Below are positions 14,700-47,263 of a stretch of DNA of 64,000 bases, piece by piece. Numbering within the stretch: the stretch's first letter is position 1; every line of letters starts with the position of its first letter. The stretch comes from an uncultured Mailhella sp. Its GTDB lineage: Bacteria; Desulfobacterota; Desulfovibrionia; Desulfovibrionales; Desulfovibrionaceae. The notes below the pieces were generated by a model, which was not told the origin of the DNA, made no database searches, and worked only from the letters and a program-made list of their open reading frames with translations. A program made the position numbers and the translations under genes. The stretch is taken from assembly GCA_944324085.1 (NCBI GenBank), contig CALUUX010000035.1:1-64000 (forward strand), written 5' to 3'.

Positions 14700-16607
14700 T
14701 TAATCCATCATGCCGGGAAGCCAGAGACTCAGACCGGGGAACATGATGATCAGAATCAGGCAAAGGAACAGTCCCGCCACGAACGGCAGCGCGGCCTTAT
14801 ACATCTGCGTCAGAGGGATGTCGGCTATTCCTTTGAGAACGAAGAGGTTGATGCCGAAGGGCGGGGTGATGCCGGCCATGTTTTTCATGATGACCATGAT
14901 CACGCCGAACCAGATGAGGTTCCAGTGGTACAGCGCGGCGATGGGCAGGAAAATGGGGATGCATATCATGATGAGGGGCGTAGCCGGAATGAAGCAGCCC
15001 AGGAACGCCATGCACAGAATAATGGCGAACAACACCCAGTATTGCCCCACGTCGAGACTGGCGATGGCGTTGGCCAGCGTCATGGGAATGCGGCTCATGG
15101 TGACGAAGTAGCCGAACGCGGCCGCGCCGCCCAGAATGGTGAAGCACATGACGATGGATCGGCTGGAATCTTCCAGAGAGGCGCGGAAACTCTTCCATGT
15201 GTAGCGACGAAGCGTGAGCCCGAGCAGCAGCGTGACGCACGCGCCGATGCCGCCGCCTTCGGTGGCGGTGAAGACGCCCGCGTACATGCCGCCGATGGTG
15301 ATGACGAAAATGCCGCATACCGGCAGGGCCGTCTTCAGCGTGGCCATGGCTTCGCGAGTGGGGATTTTTTCGGTCTTGGGCGCGATGGAGGGGTTTATCA
15401 GCGTCCATATCCAGATGATGAGGATGAAGCAGAACATGCAGGTCAGGCCGGGAAGCACGCCGGCCATGAACAGGTCGCCTATGGACTGTTCGGCGAGCAG
15501 GCCGTAGATAATGAAGGCTGTGCTCGGCGGAATGAGGCAGCCTATGGTGCCGGAACAGGCCAGGGTGCCCACGGAGAGGGTGTCGCTGTAGCCGACGCGG
15601 CGCATTTCTGGCAGGGCGATGGCGCTCATGGCCACGCTGCCCGCCAGGTTGTCGCCCACCACCGCGCCGAACAGCGTGCAGGCGCATACGCTGCCGGAGG
15701 CCAGGCCGCCCCGCAGATGCCCCATGAACGAACGGGCGCAGCGGTAGAGGTCTTCGCCGAATTTTCCGTAGAAGCAGAAATAACCCATGAGCAGGAAGAA
15801 CATGAGCGGCGACCAGTCATAACTGGCGACCTGTCCGAACCAGAAATTCCCGGCGATGTCCATGGCGGCGAAGGGGCCGCGCATGTTGGAGATGAACACG
15901 AAGGCCGTGGCCATGAGCGCAAAGGCCACCGGCATGCCGAGGAAGAACAGGGCGAACATGAAAATCATGCCCCAGACGCCAAGCGTCACGCTGCTCACGC
16001 CCGGCAGTCGATGTTCCGCCAGCCAGAAGCAGCCGATCGCCACAGCCGCCGTGCAGGCCAGCGTTATCAGCGTCACCGCGGGACGGCGTTCTTCGAGCAC
16101 GTCGGCGGCGTTGTTCAGCAGGTCGCTGAGCAGAGCGATGAAGAGCAGGGCGCAGCCCGCCGCCGCCAGCAGAAGAAACGGCATGTAGGGAATATACCAG
16201 GTCATGGTGGCCCAGTCGGGCTTTTTGAACGCGTAACGGATCATCATGGCGATGCACCACAGCACCGTCATCGCGCTCCAGGCGTTTGTGGCGAATTCGA
16301 GACGGCTTCGGCCTCTGGCCTTCAGTCTCCCGGTGATGATGTCCATCACGACATGTCCCTTGTCCCACTGCACCTTGGCCAGCGCGCCGAAATAAATAAT
16401 GGCCATGAGCAGTTCAGTGAATTCCACCGTGCCGCTCAGCGGTCTGTTGAAACAGTATCGCAGAAAAACGTCCATGAAGGTCAGCATGACCATGATAAGA
16501 AAAAGACACATGGTCAGCACGTTGGTCCAGGCGCAGATTTTTTTTGTCCGTTCGAGCGCGCGGGAAATCTGACGGAGCGTCCGGGTAAGGGTCGGTGCTT
16601 CTTGCAT
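14700..16607 (-). CDS. TRAP transporter fused small and large permease subunits (DctQM)
   Basis: A 635-residue membrane protein. The first about 180 residues form the four-helix DctQ part (with the FMDVFLRY and WDKGHVVMD segments typical of DctQ); the rest is the DctM part with its repeated hydrophobic hairpins and the motifs GTIGCLIPPST and PPFGINLFVLKG. Fusion of Q and M is known in TRAP systems. It works with the binding protein encoded 55 bp upstream to import an organic anion using the sodium gradient. The flavoprotein gene follows within 22 bp. TTG/GTG alternatives are not needed: ATG 16607 is in frame with the DctQ start. Confidence 0.9.
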   Translation of the reverse strand: MQEAPTLTRTLRQISRALERTKKICAWTNVLTMCLFLIMVMLTFMDVFLRYCFNRPLSGTVEFTELLMAIIYFGALAKVQWDKGHVVMDIITGRLKARGRSRLEFATNAWSAMTVLWCIAMMIRYAFKKPDWATMTWYIPYMPFLLLAAAGCALLFIALLSDLLNNAADVLEERRPAVTLITLACTAAVAIGCFWLAEHRLPGVSSVTLGVWGMIFMFALFFLGMPVAFALMATAFVFISNMRGPFAAMDIAGNFWFGQVASYDWSPLMFFLLMGYFCFYGKFGEDLYRCARSFMGHLRGGLASGSVCACTLFGAVVGDNLAGSVAMSAIALPEMRRVGYSDTLSVGTLACSGTIGCLIPPSTAFIIYGLLAEQSIGDLFMAGVLPGLTCMFCFILIIWIWTLINPSIAPKTEKIPTREAMATLKTALPVCGIFVITIGGMYAGVFTATEGGGIGACVTLLLGLTLRRYTWKSFRASLEDSSRSIVMCFTILGGAAAFGYFVTMSRIPMTLANAIASLDVGQYWVLFAIILCMAFLGCFIPATPLIMICIPIFLPIAALYHWNLIWFGVIMVIMKNMAGITPPFGINLFVLKGIADIPLTQMYKAALPFVAGLFLCLILIIMFPGLSLWLPGMMD

Positions 16608-34553: not shown

Positions 34554-34969
34554 CATCGGGCATGGGCGGATTTTTTATGGAAGCGTCGTCGTTTTTTACG
34601 GAAGTTGCTTTGCGAGGGGAGAGTGAGGCGGTCCGTTTGCGGCGCGGAAGAGGAGCCGTAATTCGTCGAAAAAAGGAGGACGGCTGAAAAATTTTTAATT
34701 TTTTTTTGACTGCAATTTTGTATTGTTTATAACTTACTGAAATAAAAAATAAAAAAAAACCTCCATGCTTGCTCTTTCAGGCACATGCAGGGAAGGAAAA
34801 AATTATCCGTAAATAACATGATAACTATGCGTAATATTTTATTTAAATTATTTTTTTCTTAAATGTGCCGGAAAAAAATAAACTTGTTGAACTTTTTTTT
34901 AATAATATTATTTTGTGTTCCCGTTGCGAGCAATGCAACGGAATTTATCTTTTTAACAGGGGAGTTTAT
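34554..34969. other. AT-rich intergenic region ahead of the yeiH-like gene
   Basis: About 415 bp, very A/T-rich from 34690 on, with no gene. It must carry the promoter of the following permease gene. A short imperfect hairpin (CCTCCATGC...GCATGCAGGG type) occurs around 34763-34795; I cannot assign a role. Confidence 0.45.
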
Positions 34970-36409
34970 ATGTCAACGAAAGTCGCTTTCAACGAGGATA
35001 AGGTAGCCCTTCTCTCCGGGCTCTTTATCTTCGTGCTGGCCCTGGGCAAACTGATCGGCCTGGATCCTCTGGGCTGGACCCTCAAGGTCGGCATGTGGGT
35101 GAGCAATCCCTTTGATGGCTTGTCCTCCGCGACCAAGGGACTCATGCCCGGCTGGGCTGCGCTTCTTGTCACGTACGTTTTCATCACCGCGGTTCTTTCC
35201 GTGGGTGTGAAGCTCATGAAGGGCAACGTGAAGCGTTTCATCGGTTCCTTCACGCTGGTCTTCTTCATCGCCATTGCCTGCTACACCGTGGGCGCCAACG
35301 CGTATATCGCCGCCAACCCCACCGAACTCACCAAGATGGGCATTCCGTGGGCTCTCGGCCTCAGCACGGAAGCCGGCCTTATCTGCGCTCTGATTGCCGG
35401 TATTCTTATCGGTAACTTCGCTCCCGGATTTACCGACAGCGTGCGCGAAGCCTGCCGTCCTGAACTGTTCGTGAAAATCGCCATCGTTATTCTTGGTGCC
35501 GAACTGGGCGTGAAGGCAGCTGACGCCGCCGGTTTCGCCGGTCATGTCATTTTCCGAGGCCTCTGCGCCATTGTTGAAGCCTACCTGCTGTACTGGGCCG
35601 TTGTGTACTATGTCGCCCGTAAGTACTTCAAGTTCAACAAGGAATGGGCTGCTCCCCTGGCTTCCGGCATTTCCATCTGCGGTGTGTCCGCCGCTATTGC
35701 CACGGGCGGTGCCATCCGCGCCAGGCCTGTGGTTCCGATCATGGTGTCTTCGCTCGTCGTGGTGTTCACCTGCATTGAAATGCTGGTTCTTCCTTTCCTC
35801 GCTCAGCATTTCCTGTACACCGAACCCATGGTTGCCGGCGGTTGGATGGGCCTTGCCGTTAAGTCCGACGGCGGCGCCATCGCTTCCGGCGCCATCACTG
35901 AAGCTCTGATCCTCGCGAAGGTCGCCGGCCTCGGCACTCAGTATGAACCCGGCTGGATCGTGATGGTCACCACCACCGTCAAGATCTTCATTGATATGTT
36001 CATCGGCGTGTGGGCTCTGGTGCTCGCGTACGTGTGGACCGCCAAGTTCGACAAGACCAACGGCAAGCGCACCATGACCTGGAGCGACGTGATGGATCGT
36101 TTCCCCCGTTTCGTTCTTGGTTATCTTGGCACGTTCCTGATCCTGCTGATCATGTGCCTCACCTCGCCTGATCTGCACAAGATGGGCGGCGCCATGTCCG
36201 GCGCCATCAACGGCTTCCGCACCATCTTCTTCCTCCTCACCTTCTTCAGCATCGGCATGGTTTCCAACTTCCGCAAGCTGAAGGAAGAAGGCATTGGCCG
36301 TCTTGCCGTTGTGTACATTGTCTGCCTGTTTGGCTTCATCATCTGGGTCGGTCTGTTCATCTCCTATGCTTTCTTCCATGGCATGACCCCGCCTGTGATC
36401 GGTGCCTAG
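34970..36409 (+). CDS. yeiH: YeiH/UPF0324-family permease (putative sulfate/sulfite exporter)
   Basis: About 479 residues with some 11-13 membrane segments. The family signature appears in ILIGNFAPGF, VILGAELGVKAAD and SGISICGVSAAIATGGAI; members are annotated as putative sulfate exporters, and relatives accompany taurine and sulfonate degradation genes, where sulfite or sulfate must leave the cell. It is longer than typical YeiH (about 350 residues), with extra helices at the N-terminus. ATG 34970 is preceded by AGGGGAG. A small membrane protein gene follows 24 bp later. The C-S-lyase operon lies only 0.6 kb further on, on the opposite strand. The substrate remains to be shown. Confidence 0.75.
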   Translation: MSTKVAFNEDKVALLSGLFIFVLALGKLIGLDPLGWTLKVGMWVSNPFDGLSSATKGLMPGWAALLVTYVFITAVLSVGVKLMKGNVKRFIGSFTLVFFIAIACYTVGANAYIAANPTELTKMGIPWALGLSTEAGLICALIAGILIGNFAPGFTDSVREACRPELFVKIAIVILGAELGVKAADAAGFAGHVIFRGLCAIVEAYLLYWAVVYYVARKYFKFNKEWAAPLASGISICGVSAAIATGGAIRARPVVPIMVSSLVVVFTCIEMLVLPFLAQHFLYTEPMVAGGWMGLAVKSDGGAIASGAITEALILAKVAGLGTQYEPGWIVMVTTTVKIFIDMFIGVWALVLAYVWTAKFDKTNGKRTMTWSDVMDRFPRFVLGYLGTFLILLIMCLTSPDLHKMGGAMSGAINGFRTIFFLLTFFSIGMVSNFRKLKEEGIGRLAVVYIVCLFGFIIWVGLFISYAFFHGMTPPVIGA

Positions 36410-37173: not shown

Positions 37174-37929
37174 TTATTTTCCGAGATAGCCGCCATCCAC
37201 GGGAATGACGGCCCCGGTGATGTAATCCGCCGCCTCGCTGGCGAGAAACACGGCCAGACCGCACAGATCCTGACCCGTGCCCCAGCGTTTCATGGGAATG
37301 CGGGAGGTTATTTCCCGGTACTGTTCGGGATTTTTTTCTTTCATGTCGGCGGTGAGTTTTGTCGTCATGTATCCGGGCGCTATGGCGTTGACGTGCACGC
37401 CTCGTCCGGCCCATTCGTTGGAAAGGGCTTTGGTGAGCTGAGCCACGGCTCCTTTGCTGGCCGTGTACGCCGGCACCATTTCACTGCCGAAGAAGGACGT
37501 CATGGAGGCCATATTGATGATGCGTCCGTAGCCGCGCTCAAGCATGTCGCGGCCCGCGAGCTGGGAAAGGGCAAAAATCGCGTTGAGGTTGATGTCTATG
37601 ATTTTTTTCCATCTGTCGAGGGGGAACACTTCAGCCTTGGCCCGGTACTGGATCCCAGCTCCGTTGAAGAGCACGTCGATGCGTCCGCCGCACAACGTTT
37701 TTACGGCTTCGTACGTTTCCTCCATGTGGTCTATGTCGCTCAGATCGCAGCGATAGTGCATGACCTTGCGGTCTTTTTCCATGGACTGCGCCGCTTCCTC
37801 GAGATTGGGGGCGATGTCCATGATGCAGAGATTGCCGCCGGCTTCATAGTAGGCTTTGGCGATATCGTGGCACAGGCCGTTGGCGCCGCCGGTCACGACA
37901 ATGTTTTTGTGGGCGAGATTGAGTTCCAT
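37174..37929 (-). CDS. KduD-like short-chain dehydrogenase/reductase
   Basis: 251 residues. Rossmann motif TGGANGLC (13-20; the last Gly of TGxxxGxG is Cys), NAG-type segment FNGAG at 88-92, and a catalytic Ser142-Tyr155-Lys159 set. The C-terminal half (NEWAGRGVHVNAIAPGYMTT and VFLASEAADYITGAVIPVDGG) closely recalls KduD, the 2-keto-3-deoxygluconate 5-dehydrogenase group. It should oxidise or reduce a hydroxyl/keto group on a sugar-acid-like compound with NAD(P). It is the last gene of the operon, 25 bp after the lactonase-like gene. The actual substrate is probably the compound handled by the glycyl-radical enzyme or its precursor. Confidence 0.85.
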   Translation of the reverse strand: MELNLAHKNIVVTGGANGLCHDIAKAYYEAGGNLCIMDIAPNLEEAAQSMEKDRKVMHYRCDLSDIDHMEETYEAVKTLCGGRIDVLFNGAGIQYRAKAEVFPLDRWKKIIDINLNAIFALSQLAGRDMLERGYGRIINMASMTSFFGSEMVPAYTASKGAVAQLTKALSNEWAGRGVHVNAIAPGYMTTKLTADMKEKNPEQYREITSRIPMKRWGTGQDLCGLAVFLASEAADYITGAVIPVDGGYLGK

Positions 37930-37954
37930 CGTCGTTTTTCCTTGAAGTAGAACG

Positions 37955-38737
37955 TTACTTGATGACGCCTTTCTTGCTCCATGCCGCTATCTGTTCGTTA
38001 TCGTGTCCGAACAGCATGGTCGCGTGACGTTGTTCCTGCATTTGTTTCAGTCGATCGAGATTGCTGAGAAATTCTTTCGTGCCCTTGTTGATGGGGCCTC
38101 CGGGAGGAAGGGATTTTTCCCATGTTTCCCTGGTGTACACGGTATCGCTCGTGACGATGATCTGGCCCATGGTCTGGGTTTTGATCGCGAGTCCTATGAC
38201 GCCCGGCGTATGCGCCTCCTGAATAAAGAGCGTCAGATCGGGAGCCAGATCCGTCGTGTCGCGTATGGGGCGATAGATCACGCCGCCCACGTCGAAAAGG
38301 CTTTTGACGTAGGCTCCGCCTTCTTCGCCGGTGAAGACGCTCCGACAAGCGTTCCAAAGTTCGCGTTCCGACACGACGACGTTCTTGATGGCTTTGGAGT
38401 TCTGAAAGTAGCGCAGTCCGCCCACATGATCGAAGTGCAGGTGGGACAGAATGATCATGTCGATGTCTTCGCAGGTCAGCCCCTCGCTTTGCAGGGCGTC
38501 TTCAATGGATCGGAAGTTTTCCACGGGATAGACGCGCGTGATGTCGTCGCCGTATTCCCTGCGATGATAGGGACTGTTGCCGGTGTCGTACAGCACGTTG
38601 CCGAGCGTCGGATGCCGGATCAACAGCGCGCTGACGGGCGAGTCGTACATGACGTTTTCGTCGTAGCCGTCGACGATGCGGAAATACTGACACCTGAGAT
38701 GGCCGAGCGGAAGCACGCGGAGAGAAAGTGTGTCCAT
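37955..38737 (-). CDS. Metallo-beta-lactamase-fold hydrolase, AHL-lactonase-like
   Basis: 260 residues. The zinc motif SHLHFDHVGG (HxHxDH) is complete and the later ligands are visible as EAHTPG (His), SDTVY (Asp) and LFGHD (His). The overall pattern is that of the AttM/AiiA N-acyl-homoserine-lactone lactonase branch. No LuxI/LuxR genes occur here, so I think it opens a lactone or cyclic ester of the catabolic substrate rather than a quorum signal. ATG 38737 has AGGAAA upstream; the longer frame to 38926 enters the intercistronic hairpin. It lies between the TRAP binding protein and the dehydrogenase. Confidence 0.8.
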   Translation of the reverse strand: MDTLSLRVLPLGHLRCQYFRIVDGYDENVMYDSPVSALLIRHPTLGNVLYDTGNSPYHRREYGDDITRVYPVENFRSIEDALQSEGLTCEDIDMIILSHLHFDHVGGLRYFQNSKAIKNVVVSERELWNACRSVFTGEEGGAYVKSLFDVGGVIYRPIRDTTDLAPDLTLFIQEAHTPGVIGLAIKTQTMGQIIVTSDTVYTRETWEKSLPPGGPINKGTKEFLSNLDRLKQMQEQRHATMLFGHDNEQIAAWSKKGVIK

Positions 38738-38893
38738 GGTTTTTCCTGAGCTTGGTAGAAGAACACGGGAAGCGGCGGAAGGAGACGTCGCGCAGGCCGA
38801 GGAGCGGGTAACGACGTTGCATCGTCGCGCGAAAAAGGAGGATCGGCGGGGAAAATTGGTCAGGTCGCCGCGCTGTCGAGGCGGATAGAGCAG

Positions 38894-38941
38894 GGGACCG
38901 GAACGGATATGCCGGCAGGGTGTCATATCCGTCCAGTCCCC
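38894..38941 (-). promoter_or_regulatory. Long intercistronic inverted repeat after the TRAP binding-protein gene
   Basis: GGGGACCGGAACGGATATG pairs with the complement CATATCCGTCCAGTCCCC with one bulge and a mismatch. It sits in the 250-bp gap between dctP and the lactonase gene. Without a T-run it may stabilise the upstream message and lower expression of the two last genes. Confidence 0.6.
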
Positions 38942-38987
38942 GATGCGAGCAGCGACAGCCTAAGTTCGATTATTGGGCGGGCGCGAA

Positions 38988-39992
38988 TTATTTGCCGAGG
39001 CGTTCCTTGACAATCTTCAGGAAGTCCTGATCCACGATGGCGGCGTACTTGTCATAAACGGGCTGGGCGGCGGCGCGCCATTCCTTCATTTCGTCGGCGG
39101 TCGGCGTATGGCAGAGGATGCCTTCCTTTTCCATCGTGGCGACGCTGTCGTCCATGATGGAGACCCACTGCTTGTTGGCTTCCTGGAGAGCCTTGTCCAG
39201 ACCGGCGTCCACGATGGGCTTGGCCCAGTCGGGCAGACTTTCATAGAAGGTTTTGTTCATGCTGGCGATCATGAAGAAGCCGTTGTAGGGAACGAAGATG
39301 AGCGATTCCAGATTTTCATAGAACTTGGAAATCAGGATCGTGGAGTAGTTCAGGCCGATGCCGTCGATGGTCTTGAGCTGAAGGGCGGTATAGCATTCGG
39401 CGAAGGAAATCGTGGCGGGCGACGCGCCCATGGCGGAAATGACGTCACGTTCAATGCGGGAAGCGGTGGAACGGAGCTTTTTACCCTTGATGTCCTTCAT
39501 GGTCTGGCATTTGCTGTTCATGCCCAGGGCTCTGGGAGAATAGGGAGAAATCAGCACGATCTTGACGCCGAGCTTTTCGAATTCATCTTCCAGACGCTGA
39601 TAGACGGGGCCGTCGAGCTTTCCGTCTTTGTTGTAGAAGAGCTTCATGTTTTCGTCGGGCTTTTCGCAGAGATAGGGAAGTTCAAGAACTTCCAGCTCAG
39701 GAACGACGGAGCTCAGGTTGGAACTGGACCCGAAAGCCAGCTGAATGATGTTCATCTGCGCTTTTTCCAGCGTTTCCAGGCATCCGCCCATGGAAGAGTT
39801 CTCATAAATGACGACTTCAATTCTTCCGTTACTTGCTTTCTCCACGTATTCCTTGAACGCGGCGAAGGGGACGGATTGCTCGCAGCCGGCGCCCGTATTG
39901 TGAGCCGCTTTTATGGTAATTTCCGCGGCAGAGGCTGTTCCGCAAAAGAGAAGTCCCATCAAGACGGCCATGGTAGAAAGTCTTCTGAACAT
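38988..39992 (-). CDS. dctP: TRAP substrate-binding protein (DctP family)
   Basis: 334 residues with a Sec signal peptide cleaved after about residue 22 (TASA|AE). The DctP fold is indicated by IKGKKLRSTASRIERD, with the anion-binding Arg present at residue 174, and by ISFAECYTALQLKTIDGIG. It delivers an organic acid or sulfonate to the DctQ-DctM permease encoded just upstream. It should set the specificity of the operon. Read after dctM with a 57-bp gap and GGAGG before ATG 39992. Confidence 0.9.
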   Translation of the reverse strand: MFRRLSTMAVLMGLLFCGTASAAEITIKAAHNTGAGCEQSVPFAAFKEYVEKASNGRIEVVIYENSSMGGCLETLEKAQMNIIQLAFGSSSNLSSVVPELEVLELPYLCEKPDENMKLFYNKDGKLDGPVYQRLEDEFEKLGVKIVLISPYSPRALGMNSKCQTMKDIKGKKLRSTASRIERDVISAMGASPATISFAECYTALQLKTIDGIGLNYSTILISKFYENLESLIFVPYNGFFMIASMNKTFYESLPDWAKPIVDAGLDKALQEANKQWVSIMDDSVATMEKEGILCHTPTADEMKEWRAAAQPVYDKYAAIVDQDFLKIVKERLGK

Positions 39993-40049
39993 AACATCCT
40001 CCTAACTAAGGGTAAAAGTTTTACAACTCACTCGTTATGCGCGGCTGGT

Positions 40050-41333
40050 CTATTGGAAGTACAGGTCGGGCAGCCAGAGCGTCAGCTGCGGGAATACGAT
40101 AAGAAGCGTCAGCGTGATGAGCATGCTGATCACGAAGGGGATGGACGCGGCAAAGATGCGTTCGCTGGGCACGTCGGAAATGGTGTTGGCCACAAAGAGG
40201 TTCACTCCCAGCGGCGGAGTGATGAAGCCCACCGAAAGGTTGACGATCATGATGATGCCGAAGTGGACGGGGTCGAAGCCGAGCTGAACGACCAGCGGCA
40301 GAAGAATGGGCGTGAGCAGCACGATGGCGGCCACGGTTTCCATGATCATGCCCACGAACAGCAGGAACAGGTTGATCAGCAGCATGAGCAGGATGGGATT
40401 CGACGTGAGAGACGTGAGAGCCTTGGCCATTTTCATGGGGATACCCAGCAGGGAAATGAGCTGACCGAAGAACGTGGCCATGCCCACGATGAGCAGCAGG
40501 GGAGCCACGGTCATGGCGGCGGCCCGGAACAGGCTGGGAATTTCTCTCCAGGTGAATTCCTTATAGATGAACAGGCCGACGATCAGCGCGTAGAGGCTGG
40601 CCACGGCGGCGGATTCCGTGGGAGTGAAGATGCCGCCGTAGATGCCGCCCATGATGATGACCGGCACAAGCAGGGCCCATTTAGCCTGGTTGAACGCGCG
40701 GAGCAGGGAACCGGCGGAACGCTTGGTCGGGTTGCCCCTCCAGCCGTGCTTCTTGGAGATGAAGTAGGCGGGAATCATGAGAGCTATGGCCACCAGCGCG
40801 CCGGGGATGATGCCGGCCAGGAAGAGGCGTCCGATAGAGACGTTGCCGGCCACGCCATAGATGACCATGGGGTTGCTGGGAGGAATGATGACCGAAATGC
40901 AGCCCGCGCAGGCGCAGACGGCGGCCGCGAAGTCGAGGCGGTATTTCTGGGTATGCATGGCCGGCACCATGAGTGTGCCGATGGCCGCCACCGTCGCCGG
41001 CGCGGAGCCACTGAGGTCGGCGAAGAACACGGAGGCAAGAATGGTGCTGAGGGCGTAGCCGCCGGGGAGCGCGCCCAGCAGCTCATCGGCCAGAATAAGC
41101 AGATGCTTGGCGATGCCGCCGCGGGCCATGATCTGGCCGGCCAGAACGAAGAAGGGAACGGCCAGCAGGGCAAAGCTGTCTATGCCGCTGAAGGAAGCCA
41201 TGGTGGCGAGGCCGAGAGGCATGGCTCCCGTGATGAGAAGATACGATATGGCGGTCAGACCGATGGCGATAGCGATCGGCACTCGGAAAAAGAGAAAAAA
41301 AGCGATACTGAGCAGAAGAAGAAAGCCAGTCAT
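40050..41333 (-). CDS. dctM: TRAP transporter large permease subunit (DctM)
   Basis: 427 residues with about 12 membrane segments and the DctM motifs LAVPFFVLAGQIM, SAPATVAAIGTLMVPAM and TPPLGVNLFVANTI. It forms the sodium-coupled channel part of the TRAP carrier, together with the separate DctQ gene upstream and DctP downstream. The length is normal for DctM. AGG lies upstream of ATG 41333. Confidence 0.95.
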   Translation of the reverse strand: MTGFLLLLSIAFFLFFRVPIAIAIGLTAISYLLITGAMPLGLATMASFSGIDSFALLAVPFFVLAGQIMARGGIAKHLLILADELLGALPGGYALSTILASVFFADLSGSAPATVAAIGTLMVPAMHTQKYRLDFAAAVCACAGCISVIIPPSNPMVIYGVAGNVSIGRLFLAGIIPGALVAIALMIPAYFISKKHGWRGNPTKRSAGSLLRAFNQAKWALLVPVIIMGGIYGGIFTPTESAAVASLYALIVGLFIYKEFTWREIPSLFRAAAMTVAPLLLIVGMATFFGQLISLLGIPMKMAKALTSLTSNPILLMLLINLFLLFVGMIMETVAAIVLLTPILLPLVVQLGFDPVHFGIIMIVNLSVGFITPPLGVNLFVANTISDVPSERIFAASIPFVISMLITLTLLIVFPQLTLWLPDLYFQ

Positions 41334-41375
41334 AGGAGACTCCCGGAACTAAGGTCCGTGCGGTGGTTATGGGGA

Positions 41376-41891
41376 TCAGTCCAGAGACACGCTGTAGCTG
41401 TGGATGACACCGGTCTTCTTGTAGCGGAGCCAGTCGACGATGATGGCCTGAATGAGCCGGATCATGCCGAGGCCGAAGCCGATGCCCACGAGGGACGTGA
41501 ACCACCACATGGGAAGCCGCATGGCGGAAGTCTTTTTATGCACCATGATCTGCTGCGAAACGAGTTCGTAGCAGCTGACCACCATGAGCAGGCAGAACAC
41601 GAAAAACGCCGTGTAGCTTATCATGGTGATGATGCATTGTACTTTCTGCGACGTGTGAGACGGAATGACGTCGCAGATGATATGTCTTTTGTGCCGAATG
41701 GCGTACGGAACGCCGAGGAAGACGATGGCGACAAGGAGGTACTTGGCTATTTCTTCCGAATAGAGCGAAGAGGCGTTAAGGAAGTATCGACGGACGACTT
41801 CAAAGTTCACGTCTGCAAGAAGTATGATGAAAAGAATAATTTCTATGGTGTCCTCAAAGTGACTCTCCAACCAAAGCAGTTTTTCTTTCAT
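41376..41891 (-). CDS. dctQ: TRAP transporter small permease subunit (DctQ)
   Basis: 171 residues, four membrane segments, with the DctQ features DVNFEVVRRYF, SEEIAKYLLVAIVFLGVPYAIR and HKRHIICDV. It pairs with DctM. The gene follows the amidohydrolase-like gene with a 21-bp gap and precedes dctM by 42 bp. Confidence 0.9.
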   Translation of the reverse strand: MKEKLLWLESHFEDTIEIILFIILLADVNFEVVRRYFLNASSLYSEEIAKYLLVAIVFLGVPYAIRHKRHIICDVIPSHTSQKVQCIITMISYTAFFVFCLLMVVSCYELVSQQIMVHKKTSAMRLPMWWFTSLVGIGFGLGMIRLIQAIIVDWLRYKKTGVIHSYSVSLD

Positions 41892-41912
41892 AGGTTCACT
41901 CCGTACAAGTGC

Positions 41913-42761
41913 TTACAGGGTTATTTTTAACAGCTTGCAGGCATTTTTAAAGAAAATCTTTTCTTCCTCTTCCTTGGTAAAATGGTAATTTTTCAGATCC
42001 TCCACGGCGTCCCGGATATCGTAGCAGGGGTACGCGGAACCGAAGATGATGCGATCGCAGTTCATCCATCGGCAGCCGTTCTGGTACATTTCCCTGCCGG
42101 GAGTCATGGGGTTGTGCATGTAGAGATCCGGAATGAGCCAGATGTTGGGGTGGAGCATGGCGACATTGAAGATCTGCGGTATCCACGGGTAGCAGGCGTG
42201 GGCGACGACTATCTGCAGTCGCGGAAAGTCGTTGGCGATGTTCTGGATATGCACGGGATTGCTGTATTCCAGCGTGGGCCCCTGATAGAGGCTTACGGTC
42301 AGAACCACGGGAAGCTCGGCCTGTTCGCACATGGCGTAGATGGGGTAGAACACCGCGTCGTCCGGGAGTCTTGCGGGATCGTTCCAACCCGGTTCCAGAG
42401 CGACGCCGCGGAACCCGTAGGACATGCAGGTTTCCAGTTCCTTGAGGGCGGCGAACACGCCGGAAGAAAGATCGACGCCGCCGAAGGGAATGACGACATC
42501 AGGATACATTTCCGCAAGTTCTTTGACGTCTTCGTTGGAAACGGAAGCGGCCTTGTTTCCGATATTGCGCGCCATGACGACGCCCTTTTCCACGCCGGCC
42601 TCTTTCATTTCCTGAAAGAAAAGCTCCATGGATTTTTCATGAGCCGAGGCGGTGTGGGTGCCGCGCAGGGCCATGGGGCCCGCGCTGTTGCACACGGGGT
42701 TGAAGATGGAAAGATTTTTGAAACCTTTGAACGGGGGTCGGAGGCGGAAGTCAAAAATCAT
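41913..42761 (-). CDS. Amidohydrolase_2-fold protein with altered metal site
   Basis: About 282 residues of the COG2159 TIM-barrel family. In this family the first strand normally carries an HxH pair, but here the same place reads FDFRLRPP (R6, R8); His188 on strand 6 region (VVAHACYPW) is kept, while the usual GSD of the last metal ligand reads GSAYP (Ala243). So at least three ligands are changed; it may be metal-free, use another metal set, or be a non-hydrolytic relative. I start at ATG 42761 (GGGAG 6 nt upstream), giving the typical MIFDF beginning; ATG 42773 is possible. It lies between the activase and dctQ, so it should act on the same substrate. Confidence 0.75.
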   Translation of the reverse strand: MIFDFRLRPPFKGFKNLSIFNPVCNSAGPMALRGTHTASAHEKSMELFFQEMKEAGVEKGVVMARNIGNKAASVSNEDVKELAEMYPDVVIPFGGVDLSSGVFAALKELETCMSYGFRGVALEPGWNDPARLPDDAVFYPIYAMCEQAELPVVLTVSLYQGPTLEYSNPVHIQNIANDFPRLQIVVAHACYPWIPQIFNVAMLHPNIWLIPDLYMHNPMTPGREMYQNGCRWMNCDRIIFGSAYPCYDIRDAVEDLKNYHFTKEEEEKIFFKNACKLLKITL

Positions 42762-42819
42762 ACAAGCTCCCATGGTTTTTAAAGGCGGACTGATGCGGTG
42801 AAGCTCAGAGCCGGGATCG

Positions 42820-43764
42820 TCAGGAAACGAGCCTTTCTCCCAGGCGTGATTCCGCCAGGCGTCTGAGTTTTTCCATCAGCATTTTATTGAGACTGACGTC
42901 TCCCATCGGATAGGGTCTTCCGAGCTGGGTGTACTTTTGCGTGCCGAGTCGATGGTACGCCAGCATTTCATAGGAGATGTGTCGTCCGGCCAGGGATTCT
43001 ATGAAATCACAGATATCCGCCACCGTTTTTTCCGAATCGTTGAATCCCGGTATGATCGGCGTTCGTATCAGGATGGGCAGGTCTTTGAATTCGGAAGAAA
43101 TTCTTTTGATGTTGCTGAGAATAGGGGCATTGTCCACGCCGGTATTCGCCTTATGCAGCGAAGGATCGAGGTGTTTGACGTCAATGATGAGCGTGTCAAG
43201 ATGCGAGGCTGCTTCCCGCAGAACTTCATAAGGCGCGTACGCGCAGGTTTCCATGGCCGTGTTCAGATAGCGTTTTTCCGCTTCTCTGAGGATGGCCATG
43301 AGAAATTCAGGCTGGGCGCAGGGTTCGCCGCCGGAAACCGTCAGGCCTCCGGAACTGCGCTGATAGAAGACGGCGTCTTTTTCTATTTCCTTGAGGGCCT
43401 CTTCCACGGTGATGCGGCGTCCGAAAATCTTCAGCGCGTCGGCGTGGCATCGCTGTGAGCAGGCGGCGTGACAGGCGGCGAGATCGCAACGTTCTCTCGC
43501 TATTTCCGGCAGCCCGCCGCTTACAGGAAACGAAATCGCGCCCTGCGGGCACACGTCTTCGCAAAAGCCGCATTTTTCTTTGGTCAGGCATCGGGTCGCG
43601 TTGAACGCCAGTTCCGCCTGGAAGGATTGGGATTCGGGATTGCTGCACCAGCGGCAGCGCAGCGGACAGCCCTTGAAAAACAGAATGGTCCGTATGCCGG
43701 GTCCGTCGTGAACGCTGTACTTCTGGATGTTGAAAATTTGTCCTGTGACAAGCCTGTCCTGCAT
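42820..43764 (-). CDS. Glycyl-radical enzyme activating enzyme (radical SAM)
   Basis: 314 residues. CPLRCRWC (C33, C37, C40) binds the SAM cluster; a ferredoxin-like insert follows with two cysteine groups (CLTKEKCGFCEDVCP and CDLAACHAACSQRC), as in most activases outside the PFL type; SGGEP at about 158-162 is the SAM-binding GGE motif. It makes the glycyl radical on the enzyme encoded 50 bp upstream. The hairpin at 43780-43808 lies right before its ribosome binding site. TRAP genes follow on the same strand. Confidence 0.95.
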   Translation of the reverse strand: MQDRLVTGQIFNIQKYSVHDGPGIRTILFFKGCPLRCRWCSNPESQSFQAELAFNATRCLTKEKCGFCEDVCPQGAISFPVSGGLPEIARERCDLAACHAACSQRCHADALKIFGRRITVEEALKEIEKDAVFYQRSSGGLTVSGGEPCAQPEFLMAILREAEKRYLNTAMETCAYAPYEVLREAASHLDTLIIDVKHLDPSLHKANTGVDNAPILSNIKRISSEFKDLPILIRTPIIPGFNDSEKTVADICDFIESLAGRHISYEMLAYHRLGTQKYTQLGRPYPMGDVSLNKMLMEKLRRLAESRLGERLVS

Positions 43765-43779
43765 GACCGTAGCTCCTGA

Positions 43780-43808
43780 GGGGGATCTTCCCTGAGGGAA
43801 GATCCCCC
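43780..43808 (-). promoter_or_regulatory. Perfect 13-bp hairpin between glycyl-radical enzyme and activase genes
   Basis: GGGGGATCTTCCC-TGA-GGGAAGATCCCCC. It begins 6 bp after the enzyme's stop codon and ends just before the AGGAG of the activase. There is no T-run, so it may protect the upstream mRNA or reduce activase translation, keeping enzyme in excess. Confidence 0.75.
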
Positions 43809-43814
43809 ATGCCG

Positions 43815-46334
43815 TTATATTTCCGAATGTTCAGTTCTGGCGATCAGATCATTCTGAAGGTCAGGCGTCAGATCGACAAAGTAGGCGCTGTACCCGGCCA
43901 CGCGAACAATAAGACTCCGATATTTTTTAGGGTCTTTTTGCGCGGCGAGCAGAGTGCTGCGATTGATGACGTTGAACTGCACATGCCAGAGCTTGAGGTC
44001 GATGAAGGAACGGATGAAGTCCACCAGACGGCGGGTGCCCTGTTTACCTTCCACGGCCTTGGGGCTGAACTTGATGTTCAGCATGCGGGCGGCGCGGTTT
44101 ATCTTGTCTCTGTTCTTGGAGGCGTCGTTGCTGAGCAGCACGCTGGTGGGACCGTTGACGTCGGCTCCGTGGGACGCCGACGTGCCGTCGGAAAGCGGCG
44201 TCCATGCCTTTCTGCCGTTGGCCGACGCGCTGACCACGCGGCCGAAGGGCACATGCGCCGTCACGGGTACGTAGCGGGTGTCAATGTACACGCCCAGTTC
44301 TTTGCCGTATTTTTCAAAGAAATCCATGGTGTGCCGTTCGACGGCGCGACCGATGGAGTCGGCGTAAGGATCGTTGTTGCCGTAGCAGGGGCAGTGCTGG
44401 AGAAGTTCCCTGATGTCTTCATAGCCTTCGAAGTCGGCGTCGAGCGCGGCCAGAAGCTGATCCATGGTGATGGATTTGTCGTCGTACACGGCCTTTTTGA
44501 TGGCGGCGAGACTGTCGATGAGCGTGCCGTAACCGATGTAGTCCATCAGGCCGCTTTCGTAACCTTCGGGAATGTGTTCGGTATGCAGATCAAGGCAGTA
44601 TTTCATGCAGAGATCGTGCAGGCTCGAGCTCATGGGCACGGAGAAATACTTCTGACGCATTTTGTTGGTGATGTACTGAATGTCGATGGCCACGCGCAGA
44701 TAATAGGTCTGCTGGGTCAGGAAGGCGTTCCAGAACTCGTCCCAGGTTTTCAGATTTCTGGGATCGCCGGTTTCCACGCCCAGGAGACGATCTCCGAATT
44801 TCTTGATGCGGCCGTTGTTCAGAACGAGTTCCAGCTCGGCGGGCATGTTGATGTACATGCCGCCGGACGTGTACGTGTCACGGTTGGGCATGCGGGATTC
44901 CGTGCAGCCGCTGGCCGTATAGTCATAGGCCTGATCCAGCGGCGCGCCCTTGGCGGTCATGATGGGGATGATTTCCTCGTCGTTGAGCAGCTTGGGATAG
45001 CCCGTGCCGAATTTGATGGTTTCAGCGATTTCCGACAGGAACCGTTCCGGGGAACGCGCGTGCACGCGGGCCGCCAGATCGGGATAATGCAGCGGGAATT
45101 CTCTTTTGGACTTGAGGAAAATGTAGGAAAGATCGTTGGTGGCGTCTTCGCCTTCGGGCGTGAGGCCTCCGATGGTTACGGCTTCCCAGTGCGCGTAGCC
45201 CTGGTTGAACGAGGTGCCCTGGGCGGAAATGTACATTTCGATGAACTGGGCCATGCCGCACCAGACGCATTCCAGCAGTTCCATGGCCTGCGCGTCCGTA
45301 AGAACGCCCTTATCTTTGTCCTGCTTGAACAGAGGATAGAGATACTGATCCATGCGGCCGTTGGAAATCGTGGTGCCGGTGCGCTGTTCCAGACGCGAGA
45401 ACATCTGGACGAAATACTGGCTTTGAACGGCCTGATGGAAGGTCTTGGCCGGATAGGCGGGAACCTGACGGCAGTTTTCCGCGATGAGGAGCAGTTCCTT
45501 CTTGCGCACGGGATCCTGTTCCGCGGCGGCCATTTCCTCCGCCTTTTCGGCGTGGCGGCGGGCCCAGAGCATGATGGCGTCGGACACGATGACCACGGCT
45601 TCCAGGAAGGGACGCTTTTCGTGATAGTCGGCGGGACTGTTGGGGTCGAGAGCCGCAAGGCGTTCCTTGGCTTCGCGCTGAATGTCCAGGAAGCCGCGCT
45701 TGATGACCTTGCCGTAATCGTGAACCCACTGGAGCGACGAACGCCAGGAGGCCGTTTCATTGACCAGATAGCGGGGCGTCGTTCCCTCGGCGTCGATGAA
45801 CAGGATGTCGTGCAGTTCTTTCGGCACCACCTTGTTGAAATTTTCGTGATAGGTTTTTCCCTTCCAGTACGGGCCAATTTCTTCTTTGATGACCTTCATG
45901 CTTTCCGGGGAAATGGAGGCGGTTCCGCCTTCGCGTTCTCCCAGCTTGGTCAGGAAGGTTTCATAGAAGTCGCCTTCGATTTCGGGATACATGATGCCGT
46001 AACGGCCTTTGCATCCGAGGCGGCCGACGATGAGCTGATAGTCGTCGATGTAGACGGTGATATTGCTTGCGATGTTGTACAGAGCCTTCGCCCAGCGCAG
46101 AATAAGCGGTTCGCCTTCCGTCTGCTTCATGCTGCGGGTGAAATAAAGAGCTCGTTCCACGTCAATGACGGGTTCCATGCCGTCGAAAGTTTGAACGATG
46201 TTATAAACGCGCGGATGCTCTTTTTGAAAAACGTCTTCACCGATGCCGAAAATGCGTTTTTCCTGCCCGGAAAGAGATATTTCTTCATGACAATCGCAGC
46301 CGGAAAAACATGATGCGGCGTTCGAGTCAAACAT
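43815..46334 (-). CDS. Glycyl-radical enzyme, probable sulfonate C-S lyase (IslA/HpsG type)
   Basis: 839 residues. The radical Gly lies in RVAGYSAYF (Gly814) and the thiyl Cys is C477 in SGCTES, with Glu479 two residues on. From memory, isethionate lyase uses R189, Q193, W374, C468, E470, R678 and F682; a constant offset of 9 places R198, Q202, W383, C477, E479 and R687 here, a match at six of seven, while F682 corresponds to V691. This strongly suggests a sulfonate substrate and sulfite release, with a pocket somewhat larger than for isethionate; 2,3-dihydroxypropanesulfonate (HpsG) is one option, a new sulfonate another. GGAGAG precedes ATG 46334. No microcompartment or aldehyde dehydrogenase genes accompany it. 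Cofactor-free cytoplasmic enzyme; it is oxygen-sensitive when activated. Confidence 0.8.
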   Translation of the reverse strand: MFDSNAASCFSGCDCHEEISLSGQEKRIFGIGEDVFQKEHPRVYNIVQTFDGMEPVIDVERALYFTRSMKQTEGEPLILRWAKALYNIASNITVYIDDYQLIVGRLGCKGRYGIMYPEIEGDFYETFLTKLGEREGGTASISPESMKVIKEEIGPYWKGKTYHENFNKVVPKELHDILFIDAEGTTPRYLVNETASWRSSLQWVHDYGKVIKRGFLDIQREAKERLAALDPNSPADYHEKRPFLEAVVIVSDAIMLWARRHAEKAEEMAAAEQDPVRKKELLLIAENCRQVPAYPAKTFHQAVQSQYFVQMFSRLEQRTGTTISNGRMDQYLYPLFKQDKDKGVLTDAQAMELLECVWCGMAQFIEMYISAQGTSFNQGYAHWEAVTIGGLTPEGEDATNDLSYIFLKSKREFPLHYPDLAARVHARSPERFLSEIAETIKFGTGYPKLLNDEEIIPIMTAKGAPLDQAYDYTASGCTESRMPNRDTYTSGGMYINMPAELELVLNNGRIKKFGDRLLGVETGDPRNLKTWDEFWNAFLTQQTYYLRVAIDIQYITNKMRQKYFSVPMSSSLHDLCMKYCLDLHTEHIPEGYESGLMDYIGYGTLIDSLAAIKKAVYDDKSITMDQLLAALDADFEGYEDIRELLQHCPCYGNNDPYADSIGRAVERHTMDFFEKYGKELGVYIDTRYVPVTAHVPFGRVVSASANGRKAWTPLSDGTSASHGADVNGPTSVLLSNDASKNRDKINRAARMLNIKFSPKAVEGKQGTRRLVDFIRSFIDLKLWHVQFNVINRSTLLAAQKDPKKYRSLIVRVAGYSAYFVDLTPDLQNDLIARTEHSEI

Positions 46335-46450
46335 GGTTCTCTCCTTTTCCCTTTAAGAACTTGCTTATCCTGCGTCATGGCCACTGGCGGAAGAAAAGCT
46401 GAACTTCTGGGCGCTCCCGAACTTCATGCATGCCGGAAATCAGGGGCTTT

Positions 46451-46466
46451 TGTTATTTTTATAACA
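46451..46466. promoter_or_regulatory. Operator-like dyad TGTTA-N6-TAACA
   Basis: Six-bp arms TGTTAT / ATAACA around TTTT, 117 bp upstream of the glycyl-radical enzyme start codon. Same 5-6-5 geometry as Crp-family sites and same half-site as the next element. Confidence 0.5.
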
Positions 46467-46483
46467 CGGGCGTTTTTTTTATC

Positions 46484-46499
46484 GATAACAGCTGTTATC
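46484..46499. promoter_or_regulatory. Perfect 16-bp palindrome GATAACAGCTGTTATC, candidate Crp/FNR-type operator
   Basis: Exact two-fold symmetry, GATAA-N6-TTATC. It lies 150 bp before the glycyl-radical enzyme start codon and shares TGTTAT/ATAACA with the dyad 18 bp away. The Crp/FNR-type gene directly upstream is the obvious candidate protein. Confidence 0.65.
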
Positions 46500-46615
46500 A
46501 ATCCGGAAAAATTTTCATATTTTTTCTCGCCGCTAAAAAAGCAGGCGGTCTCTCCCGAGAGGCATGGGCTGCGGGCGTGGCCGTCTGCCGTTCGACAAAG
46601 TTTGAGTTTGTTTAC

Positions 46616-47263
46616 TTATCTTGTTATAATAATAGAGTTTTTACTTGTTTGAATATCCATTTCCTTTTTCAGGTCGGAGAGGGCGCGCGATATGGAGACG
46701 CTGTGAACGTTTAAAATTCTGGCAAGTTCTTTCTGGCACATGTGCAATTCCAGCCGGCGTTCTCCGCGGTTGAGCGTAAATTGCATTTCCAGAAAAGCTC
46801 TCAGGCGTTCCTTGAGAGTCTGGTTTTTAAAATTTTCAAACTTTGTGCAGATGCTTGTGGATTTTACGGCAAGCGTAAACAAAATATTTTTTACGATGTC
46901 AGGGTTTTGAATAAGTTTATTGATGGCGCTTTCGGAAAATTTGCTTACCGTGCACTTTTCCGCGGCGATAAATTCATCCATGCTTTTTCTTTTGGAAAAG
47001 TACCACGCTTCGGCAAGAAAGCCTTTGGTGATGACATAGGCGAGATTCATGTCGATGTTATTGTCGGGACGATATCCGTTGATAATTCCTTCGTGGAGAT
47101 ACCAGATGGATCGTGGCACTTCACCGTAGGAAAGAAGAACCGTTCCCTTGGGGAGAACCAGCTTTTCACCTAAGGAAAAGGTGTCGCTGGGGAGCTCAGG
47201 AGCTCCGGAAAGGTCGTAGCAGTGGGCAAAGTGAAGCTGATCGATTTTTTCTATTTTTTTCAT
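46616..47263 (-). CDS. Crp/FNR-family transcription regulator (C-S-lyase operon)
   Basis: About 215 residues with an N-terminal effector barrel and a C-terminal winged HTH (MCQKELARILNVHSVSISRALSDLKKE). It is encoded directly upstream of the operon on the same strand, and the 281-bp gap holds two operator-like dyads. I start at ATG 47263 because GGAGAGG precedes it; the frame is open to 47458, but that part has no family resemblance. It is AT-richer than the catabolic genes. It could sense the sulfonate, a breakdown product or redox state; no FNR-type cysteine set is apparent. Confidence 0.8.
   Translation of the reverse strand: MKKIEKIDQLHFAHCYDLSGAPELPSDTFSLGEKLVLPKGTVLLSYGEVPRSIWYLHEGIINGYRPDNNIDMNLAYVITKGFLAEAWYFSKRKSMDEFIAAEKCTVSKFSESAINKLIQNPDIVKNILFTLAVKSTSICTKFENFKNQTLKERLRAFLEMQFTLNRGERRLELHMCQKELARILNVHSVSISRALSDLKKEMDIQTSKNSIIITR

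Follow-up and report, generated by a model that had tools for sequence, protein, structure and literature searches.

The sulfide output of gut bacteria from dietary and host sulfonates is governed by oxygen-sensitive glycyl-radical enzymes (GREs) of the sulfite-lyase type, which release sulfite from small organosulfonates. The sulfonate GREs found in the literature searched are IslA, HpsG and HpfG, and only two substrates of sulfite-lyase GREs are established, i.e., isethionate and 2,3-dihydroxypropane-1-sulfonate (DHPS). IslA/IseG loci (enzyme structures 5ymr and 7kq3) hold a tripartite ATP-independent periplasmic (TRAP) carrier, IseP, an activase gene and, nearby, a gene for an amidohydrolase-fold protein (AMH); the islAB cluster of Bilophila wadsworthia ends in a gene of "predicted amidohydrolase function" (PMC8667426). 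The genus Mailhella is credited with isethionate respiration in a 2026 rumen study, which reports islAB/hpsGH homologues in 75% of 48 genomes (PMC13219744). Here, we describe an operon in a 64,000-nucleotide window, the whole stretch of DNA analysed, from contig CALUUX010000035.1 of an uncultured Mailhella sp. The operon is probably a third sulfite-releasing pathway built on such radical enzymes, with a small sulfonate and not a sugar as substrate; pathways of this kind feed hydrogen sulfide production. In its full form, to which we give an even chance, the reading is that a third C-S-lyase GRE pathway acts on a small beta-hydroxysulfonate, most likely with three carbons (C3), as a sulfite source in an anaerobic gut bacterium, and that an optional pair of genes, encoding a metallo-beta-lactamase-fold hydrolase (MBL) and a short-chain dehydrogenase (SDR), serves the carbon product.

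The operon and its glycyl-radical enzyme

The operon lies at 37174-47263 on the minus strand, and an earlier note made from the DNA letters had described its anatomy correctly: every gene is an open frame at the place given, and the Pfam families are GRE, radical-SAM activase, Amidohydro_2, DctP/Q/M, Lactamase_B and SDR. In the order of transcription, the genes are:

46616..47263, minus strand: CRP/FNR-like regulator (Pfam cNMP_binding and HTH_Crp_2), with an orthologue at 4/4 loci carrying the same GRE
43815..46334, minus strand: putative GRE of the sulfite-lyase type, clade X (PF02901 and PF01228)
42820..43764, minus strand: radical-SAM GRE activase with a ferredoxin insert (PF04055, and TIGR02494 above cut-off)
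41913..42773, minus strand: AMH of clade A, metal ligands replaced (motifs DFRLRP and GSAYP; PF04909)
41376..41891, minus strand: DctQ, small membrane subunit of the TRAP carrier (PF04290)
40050..41333, minus strand: DctM, large membrane subunit of the TRAP carrier (PF06808, TIGR00786)
38988..39992, minus strand: DctP, solute receptor of the TRAP carrier, ligand site divergent (PF03480)
37955..38737, minus strand: MBL, resembling N-acyl homoserine lactone (AHL) lactonases, metal site complete (PF00753)
37174..37929, minus strand: KduD-like SDR, probably NAD-dependent (PF13561)

The genes are spaced by 21-57 bp, except for 250 bp ahead of the MBL gene and 281 bp between the GRE and regulator genes. 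The best model for the activase is NF048010 (HpsH type), at 407.6, under its cut-off of 430. Compared with the IslA/IseG system, the operon has no microcompartment or aldehyde dehydrogenase gene and instead carries the MBL, the SDR and the CRP-like regulator. The earlier note had drawn this contrast with isethionate loci incompletely, as known isethionate loci share with the operon not only the TRAP carrier and the activase but also an amidohydrolase-fold gene.

Alignment to B. wadsworthia IslA, whose isethionate-binding and catalytic positions are taken from PMC8473560 (residue roles also from PMC6453916), bears out the claim that the window GRE carries sulfonate-lyase residues: all seven positions, R189, Q193, W374, C468, E470, R678 and G805, are kept. 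In the enzyme's own numbering (IslA plus 9), the residues that matter below are Arg198, Gln202, Thr321, Trp383, Cys477, Glu479, Arg687, Val691 and Gly814. The window GRE thus shares with IslA/IseG the sulfonate triad, the CxE motif, Trp374 and the glycyl domain at 61-62% identity (62.5% to D. vulgaris IslA and 61.3% to B. wadsworthia IslA), and it is 57.1% identical to B. wadsworthia HpsG. The pocket positions 192, 312 and 682 read Leu, Thr and Val in all clade-X rows, Ile, Thr and Phe in IslA, and Leu, Ala and Ile in HpsG. The packing residue Phe682 of IslA is therefore absent from the window GRE and the other clade-X rows, and it is one of 12 positions that are invariant in 7/7 clade-X rows yet unlike the residue that 90% or more of 82 IslA-like rows share, among them F682V and S684A. 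The likeness to HpsG (6lon) lies in Leu192, in the small residue at 682 and in the AMH clade discussed below; the differences are the 57% identity, the separate clade, Thr rather than Ala at 312 and a receptor site unlike that of HpsG loci.

In a careful tree of 42 rows, the window GRE belongs to a clade of eight rows, clade X (bootstrap/SH-aLRT, the latter a Shimodaira-Hasegawa-like approximate likelihood ratio test, 100/99), and lies outside both the HpsG relatives, which form a separate clade (100/100), and the 14 IslA relatives, which form another (92/98). The branch joining the HpsG and IslA clades to other Mailhella paralogues is weak (82/74). A quick tree of 131 rows, from which four short or badly framed rows were removed, gives the same picture, i.e., 81 IslA-like rows (SH-aLRT 99) with clade X outside. 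Clade X further includes D. piger ATCC 29098, Ca. Avidesulfovibrio and one more Desulfovibrionaceae bin. Residues and trees together support the window GRE as an enzyme of the sulfonate C-S-lyase type that is neither IslA nor HpsG, and mark clade X as a third clade of predicted sulfite-lyase GREs having its own operon type. The NCBIfam model NF048011, "(2S)-3-sulfopropanediol dehydratase", gives the window GRE 1364.6 bits (cut-off 1000) and IslA-type enzymes more (1557.1 for D. piger L084, 1500.3 for an IslA-type enzyme on contig C24 of the window's own genome). As it ranks IslA-type over HpsG-type enzymes, its name was dropped as a guide to substrate.

One set of related loci was limited to the best 80 of 196. 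Among the matches listed, near-identical GREs were found in 4/288 genomes of the family, the window's own and those labelled G015, G018 and G078, in a search that took no more than three candidates of each genome into account and that informs on the 87-100% identity group only. The GREs at G018 and at G015, a genome of the same genus, are 88% identical to that of the window, the GRE at G078 86%. Regulator, TRAP carrier, GRE, activase and AMH are present at all four loci with an 86-100% identical GRE, the regulator orthologues being 57% (G018), 52% (G015) and 47% (G078) identical to that of the window. In G078, from another genus of the family, contig C23 carries DctP, DctQM, GRE, activase, AMH, MBL and SDR in one run, with the CRP-like gene divergent; identities to the window are 86% for the GRE, 71% for the activase, 86% for AMH, 68% for MBL and 84% for SDR. 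Recurrence of the complete set in a second genus makes it more than a chance assembly.

Partner genes and the TRAP receptor

AMH is a common partner of these enzymes. Among loci with sufficient flank, it lies within 6 kb of 40/55 IslA-like, 3/5 HpsG-like, 5/6 clade-X and 21/26 other GREs; none was found at 15 IslA-like, 2 HpsG-like, 1 clade-X and 5 other loci, some loci are counted twice, and the clade-X count leaves out the window and G078, both of which have AMH. In seven genomes, AMH is found within 6 kb of 31/48 GREs (at most 3.4 expected), while 79/106 AMHs of the same genomes are not near a GRE. AMH was accordingly rejected as the sign of a special pathway: it accompanies sulfonate GREs in general, those of the IslA type too, and is so near-constant that even the known pathways hold a conserved gene without an assigned role. 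As a separate observation, each of seven genomes (G017 and others of the genus) has 5 to 26 Arg-x-Arg AMH paralogues, mostly away from GREs.

In amidohydrolases of the COG2159 type, an HxH motif on strand 1 and an Asp on strand 8 are metal ligands. In 20/20 aligned AMHs, R10, R12, H192 and A247 are invariant: Arg-x-Arg replaces the metal histidines and Ala replaces the Asp, the column of A247 matching the Asp of 3nur. The AMH model has a TIM-barrel fold, with a mean predicted local distance difference test score (pLDDT) of 86.2. A structure search, which speaks to fold and not to activity, places it nearest to BB4693 (3irs; Z 36.5, next Z 25.9), a protein of unassigned function that resembles it in model, sequence (37% identity) and DFRLRP motif; zinc decarboxylases and hydratases follow. 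The AMH tree (rows under 250 aa left out, GRE labels assigned within 6 kb, some loci fetched twice) consists of two clades whose split has a support of 100. All IslA-linked AMHs (41/41) are on one side; the other clade holds 7/7 clade-X, 2/2 K-type (described below) and 4/6 HpsG-linked rows. Because the operon shares this AMH clade with most sampled HpsG-linked rows, it resembles the DHPS type more than the isethionate type.

MBL and SDR have a different distribution. Both (E <=1e-50 for MBL, E <=1e-70 for SDR) are found in the same 5/288 genomes of the family, adjacent in 5/5 and always within a GRE cluster: twice with the window-type GRE (window and G078) and three times with another enzyme, the K-type GRE (G016, G018 and G142), which is 40-41% identical, its sulfonate positions being occupied by Asn, Asn and Lys and position 374 by Phe. 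The pair is thus a true module tied to GRE clusters and not to sulfonates as such. It is not found at the clade-X locus of G018, where it lies at another GRE locus, or at that of G015, a genome with neither gene at the search thresholds; as neither gene lies nearby at two of the four loci carrying that GRE, the pair was rejected as a fixed part of the pathway. The view that the accessory genes belong with the GRE is supported: the same set stands in G078, and MBL and SDR share their five genomes. Because three clusters pair MBL and SDR with a GRE lacking the sulfonate-binding residues, the carbon product is a likelier substrate for the pair than the sulfonate. Beyond the family, in 395 sampled genomes of the phylum, a search for MBL at 1e-45 returned only the window's own genome, which says nothing on other phyla.

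By NCBIfam models, the closest match of the MBL is the AHL lactonase AhlS, at 101.1 bits and below the cut-off of 475. The SDR best matches two KduD models, again below the cut-offs (253 vs 369 and 238.6 vs 338.85). The metal ligands of AHL lactonases are HxHxDH plus H, D and H, and the MBL retains them (HLHFDH, H, D, H) in 5/5 orthologues. The three K-type clusters also hold a Na/sulfate-type symporter or a CitMHS transporter, together with a gene of the ALAD family (porphobilinogen synthase type; L045 9459-10448, L046 12808-13797, L210 4519-5586), and those of G016 and G142 hold a second MBL.

The closest solved relative of the window DctP is the isethionate receptor 8t9t (2.3e-37). The ligand site of the isethionate receptor OaIseP comprises 14 residues, with roles according to PMC11668362. 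The receptors at G018, G015 and G078 keep 10/14, among them the arginines that bind the sulfonate as well as D77 and H244, which contact the hydroxyl, and change A40, Y153, L221 and S242; against the isethionate receptor, the G018 protein scores 4.6e-79 (next best 2.3e-39) and the G078 protein 1.3e-83 (next 1.6e-43). By comparison, 31 isethionate-type receptors beside IslA-like GREs repeat all 14 residues bar Y153F in six, one row ending before the last two; a further 12 receptors next to such GREs belong to another type (15-18% identical to the isethionate receptor, one 19%) and stand outside this count. Three HpsG-linked receptors repeat one site that keeps 5/14. Judged by its ligand site, the carrier of three of the four loci seems to be made for an isethionate-like compound with an added group, and the closeness of these receptors to the isethionate receptor argues for a small hydroxysulfonate. 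The window TRAP carrier is not orthologous to these three (23-25% identity), so their ligand does not carry over to the window receptor.

Radical enzymes of the genome and its relatives

The assembly of the window's genome (2.31 Mb, 94 contigs) encodes six GREs, among them the window GRE, an IslA-type enzyme on C24, one on C3 with a tandem non-canonical partner, and those on C78 and C64. The HpsG pair Ala312/Ile682 occurs in none of the six. As C24 carries, beside its IslA-type GRE, an isethionate-type receptor, isethionate already appears to be catered for in this genome. Given such paralogues, the islAB/hpsGH counts of the rumen study may lump several enzymes.

Other GRE variants occur as well. 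In a paralogue standing in tandem with an IslA-like GRE (G000:C3:48284-50545, i.e., L059 12186-14606; also L072, L054 and L073), Tyr replaces the catalytic Cys and, in 2/4 genomes, Ser replaces the radical Gly; kept in four Mailhella-group genomes, this paralogue looks by its residues like a non-catalytic or non-canonical subunit. Another GRE clade (L068, L023, L070 and L025, from G009, G006, G017 and G011) has the sulfonate triad but Ser for the catalytic Glu of CxE (CAS). At the G018 locus L055, a DUF711 gene (14768-16135) follows AMH on the opposite strand.

Proposed pathway and its rivals

From gene content, residues, clade and co-occurrence, which are observed, we infer all activities, the substrate, the order of steps and the feeding of sulfite into respiration. 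The TRAP carrier would import a small hydroxysulfonate. The activase would place a radical on Gly814, from which it would move to Cys477; Cys477 would then abstract hydrogen at the hydroxyl-bearing carbon, and Glu479 would accept the proton of the hydroxyl. Arg198, Gln202 and Arg687 would hold the sulfite, whose departure would leave a ketone or aldehyde. Val691 in place of Phe would make room in the pocket for a substituent absent from isethionate. AMH, as common kit of these GREs, would have the carbonyl product, or the adduct of that product with sulfite, as its substrate. SDR would carry out a reduction or oxidation of the carbon product, and an ester-type intermediate might be opened or cleaved by MBL. 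Sulfite would go to reduction and the carbonyl to carbon metabolism. A C3 skeleton is favoured because it fits receptor, pocket and AMH clade together. As the earlier note held, no described pathway with exactly this set was found: the literature searched, whose scope left out most subscription journals, held no paper combining a GRE, a lactonase-like MBL and a KduD-like SDR, and papers that mention GREs, sulfonates and lactonases alike deal with other routes.

A competing explanation is that the window GRE is a second lyase for isethionate or DHPS (perhaps for the (R)-form, or for both forms), its divergence being neutral or kinetic. The isethionate-like receptors at three of the four loci, the AMH type of most sampled HpsG loci and the lack of an HpsG-type GRE in the window's genome are all compatible with it, as are the overlapping specificities of HpsG and IslA, both of which can cleave isethionate (PMC13219744). 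It nevertheless has to account for a clade apart from both enzymes, for Val at the substrate-packing position in every clade-X row and for four ligand-site changes in the receptors of G018, G015 and G078 where isethionate-type receptors beside IslA-like GREs keep the site bar Y153F in six. G015, moreover, carries IslA-type, HpsG-type and clade-X GREs together. We regard this explanation as possible but doubtful. That the GRE is instead a dehydratase or another eliminase, and no sulfite lyase, seems very improbable: the dehydratase name of NF048011 fits above its cut-off and the SDR/MBL context is compatible with other substrates too, but the higher scores of IslA-type enzymes deprive that name of weight, and the window GRE, unlike the K-type GRE, has retained Trp374 and the sulfonate triad.

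The earlier note itself had proposed that the sulfonate is larger, either lactone-forming or derived from a sugar, and is trimmed prior to C-S cleavage: SDR would oxidise it, MBL open it and AMH change it ahead of the GRE. Open-chain sulfosugars do have a hydroxyl beside the C-S bond, the window MBL has a complete lactonase-type metal site and the window receptor is divergent. This would be an anaerobic parallel to the sulfo-Entner-Doudoroff pathway, in which a PF13561 SDR oxidises sulfoquinovose and the lactone is then hydrolysed (PMC9594981); the window SDR is also PF13561 and likewise stands beside a putative lactone hydrolase. The known lactonases of that pathway, however, are PF08450 proteins and not MBLs (PMC9594981), no sugar-acid dehydratase or aldolase gene is among the operon's genes, and C-S cleavage would fall to a GRE. 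AMH is generic, nearly the same GRE stands elsewhere without MBL and SDR and beside isethionate-type receptors, and the pair also accompanies GREs without sulfonate residues. The proposal is thus not supported by the comparison with related loci, and we consider a sugar-derived substrate distinctly unlikely.

Several observations weigh against the C3 hydroxysulfonate pathway that we prefer. Thr312 of the window GRE is IslA-like and unlike the Ala of HpsG, and residue comparison finds no extra basic residue near the GRE site that would mark a second acid group. The window DctP keeps only 5/14 isethionate-receptor ligand residues, and the compound imported by the window carrier may, to judge from its site, differ from that of its relatives. 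Two of the six HpsG-linked AMHs sit in the IslA-side clade, and a C3 product gives no explanation for a lactonase-like MBL. Because G015 also has an HpsG-type GRE, (S)-DHPS alone cannot account for its clade-X enzyme. The clade-X relatives in D. piger ATCC 29098 (L116, Scfld8), a cultured strain that also has an IslA-type GRE (L084), and at L103, which has AMH in addition, show instead a TctA/TctC carrier together with an aldehyde dehydrogenase, so that clade X may span more than one substrate. Finally, dsrA was not found in the window's own 96%-complete assembly, where dsrC was found, and it was found in 5/5 other genomes searched.

A more far-reaching idea, which we offer as a long shot, is that sulfite-releasing GREs share a dedicated metal-free AMH whose two Arg residues, standing where metal histidines would be, hold the sulfonate of an aldehyde- or ketone-bisulfite adduct, which arises from the two GRE products and which AMH splits, with an acetaldehyde type at IslA loci and a C3-ketone type at HpsG, clade-X and K-type loci. 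The mobile MBL-SDR pair would then serve both a C-S-cleaving GRE and one without a sulfonate site, sulfonate and sulfur-free routes joining one carbon pathway. Clade X itself, which has a member in the cultured strain D. piger ATCC 29098, suggests that the gut holds a sulfonate not yet listed, and makes the question testable.

Promoter and terminator scans of the window gave 13 and 20 matches, vs 7.3 and 14.8 expected, and were set aside without use. Adjoining the operon on the opposite strand, at 34865-36409 (plus strand), is a putative exporter of the PF03601/YeiH-like type with a weak NCBIfam match, for which a role in sulfite or sulfate export is conceivable.

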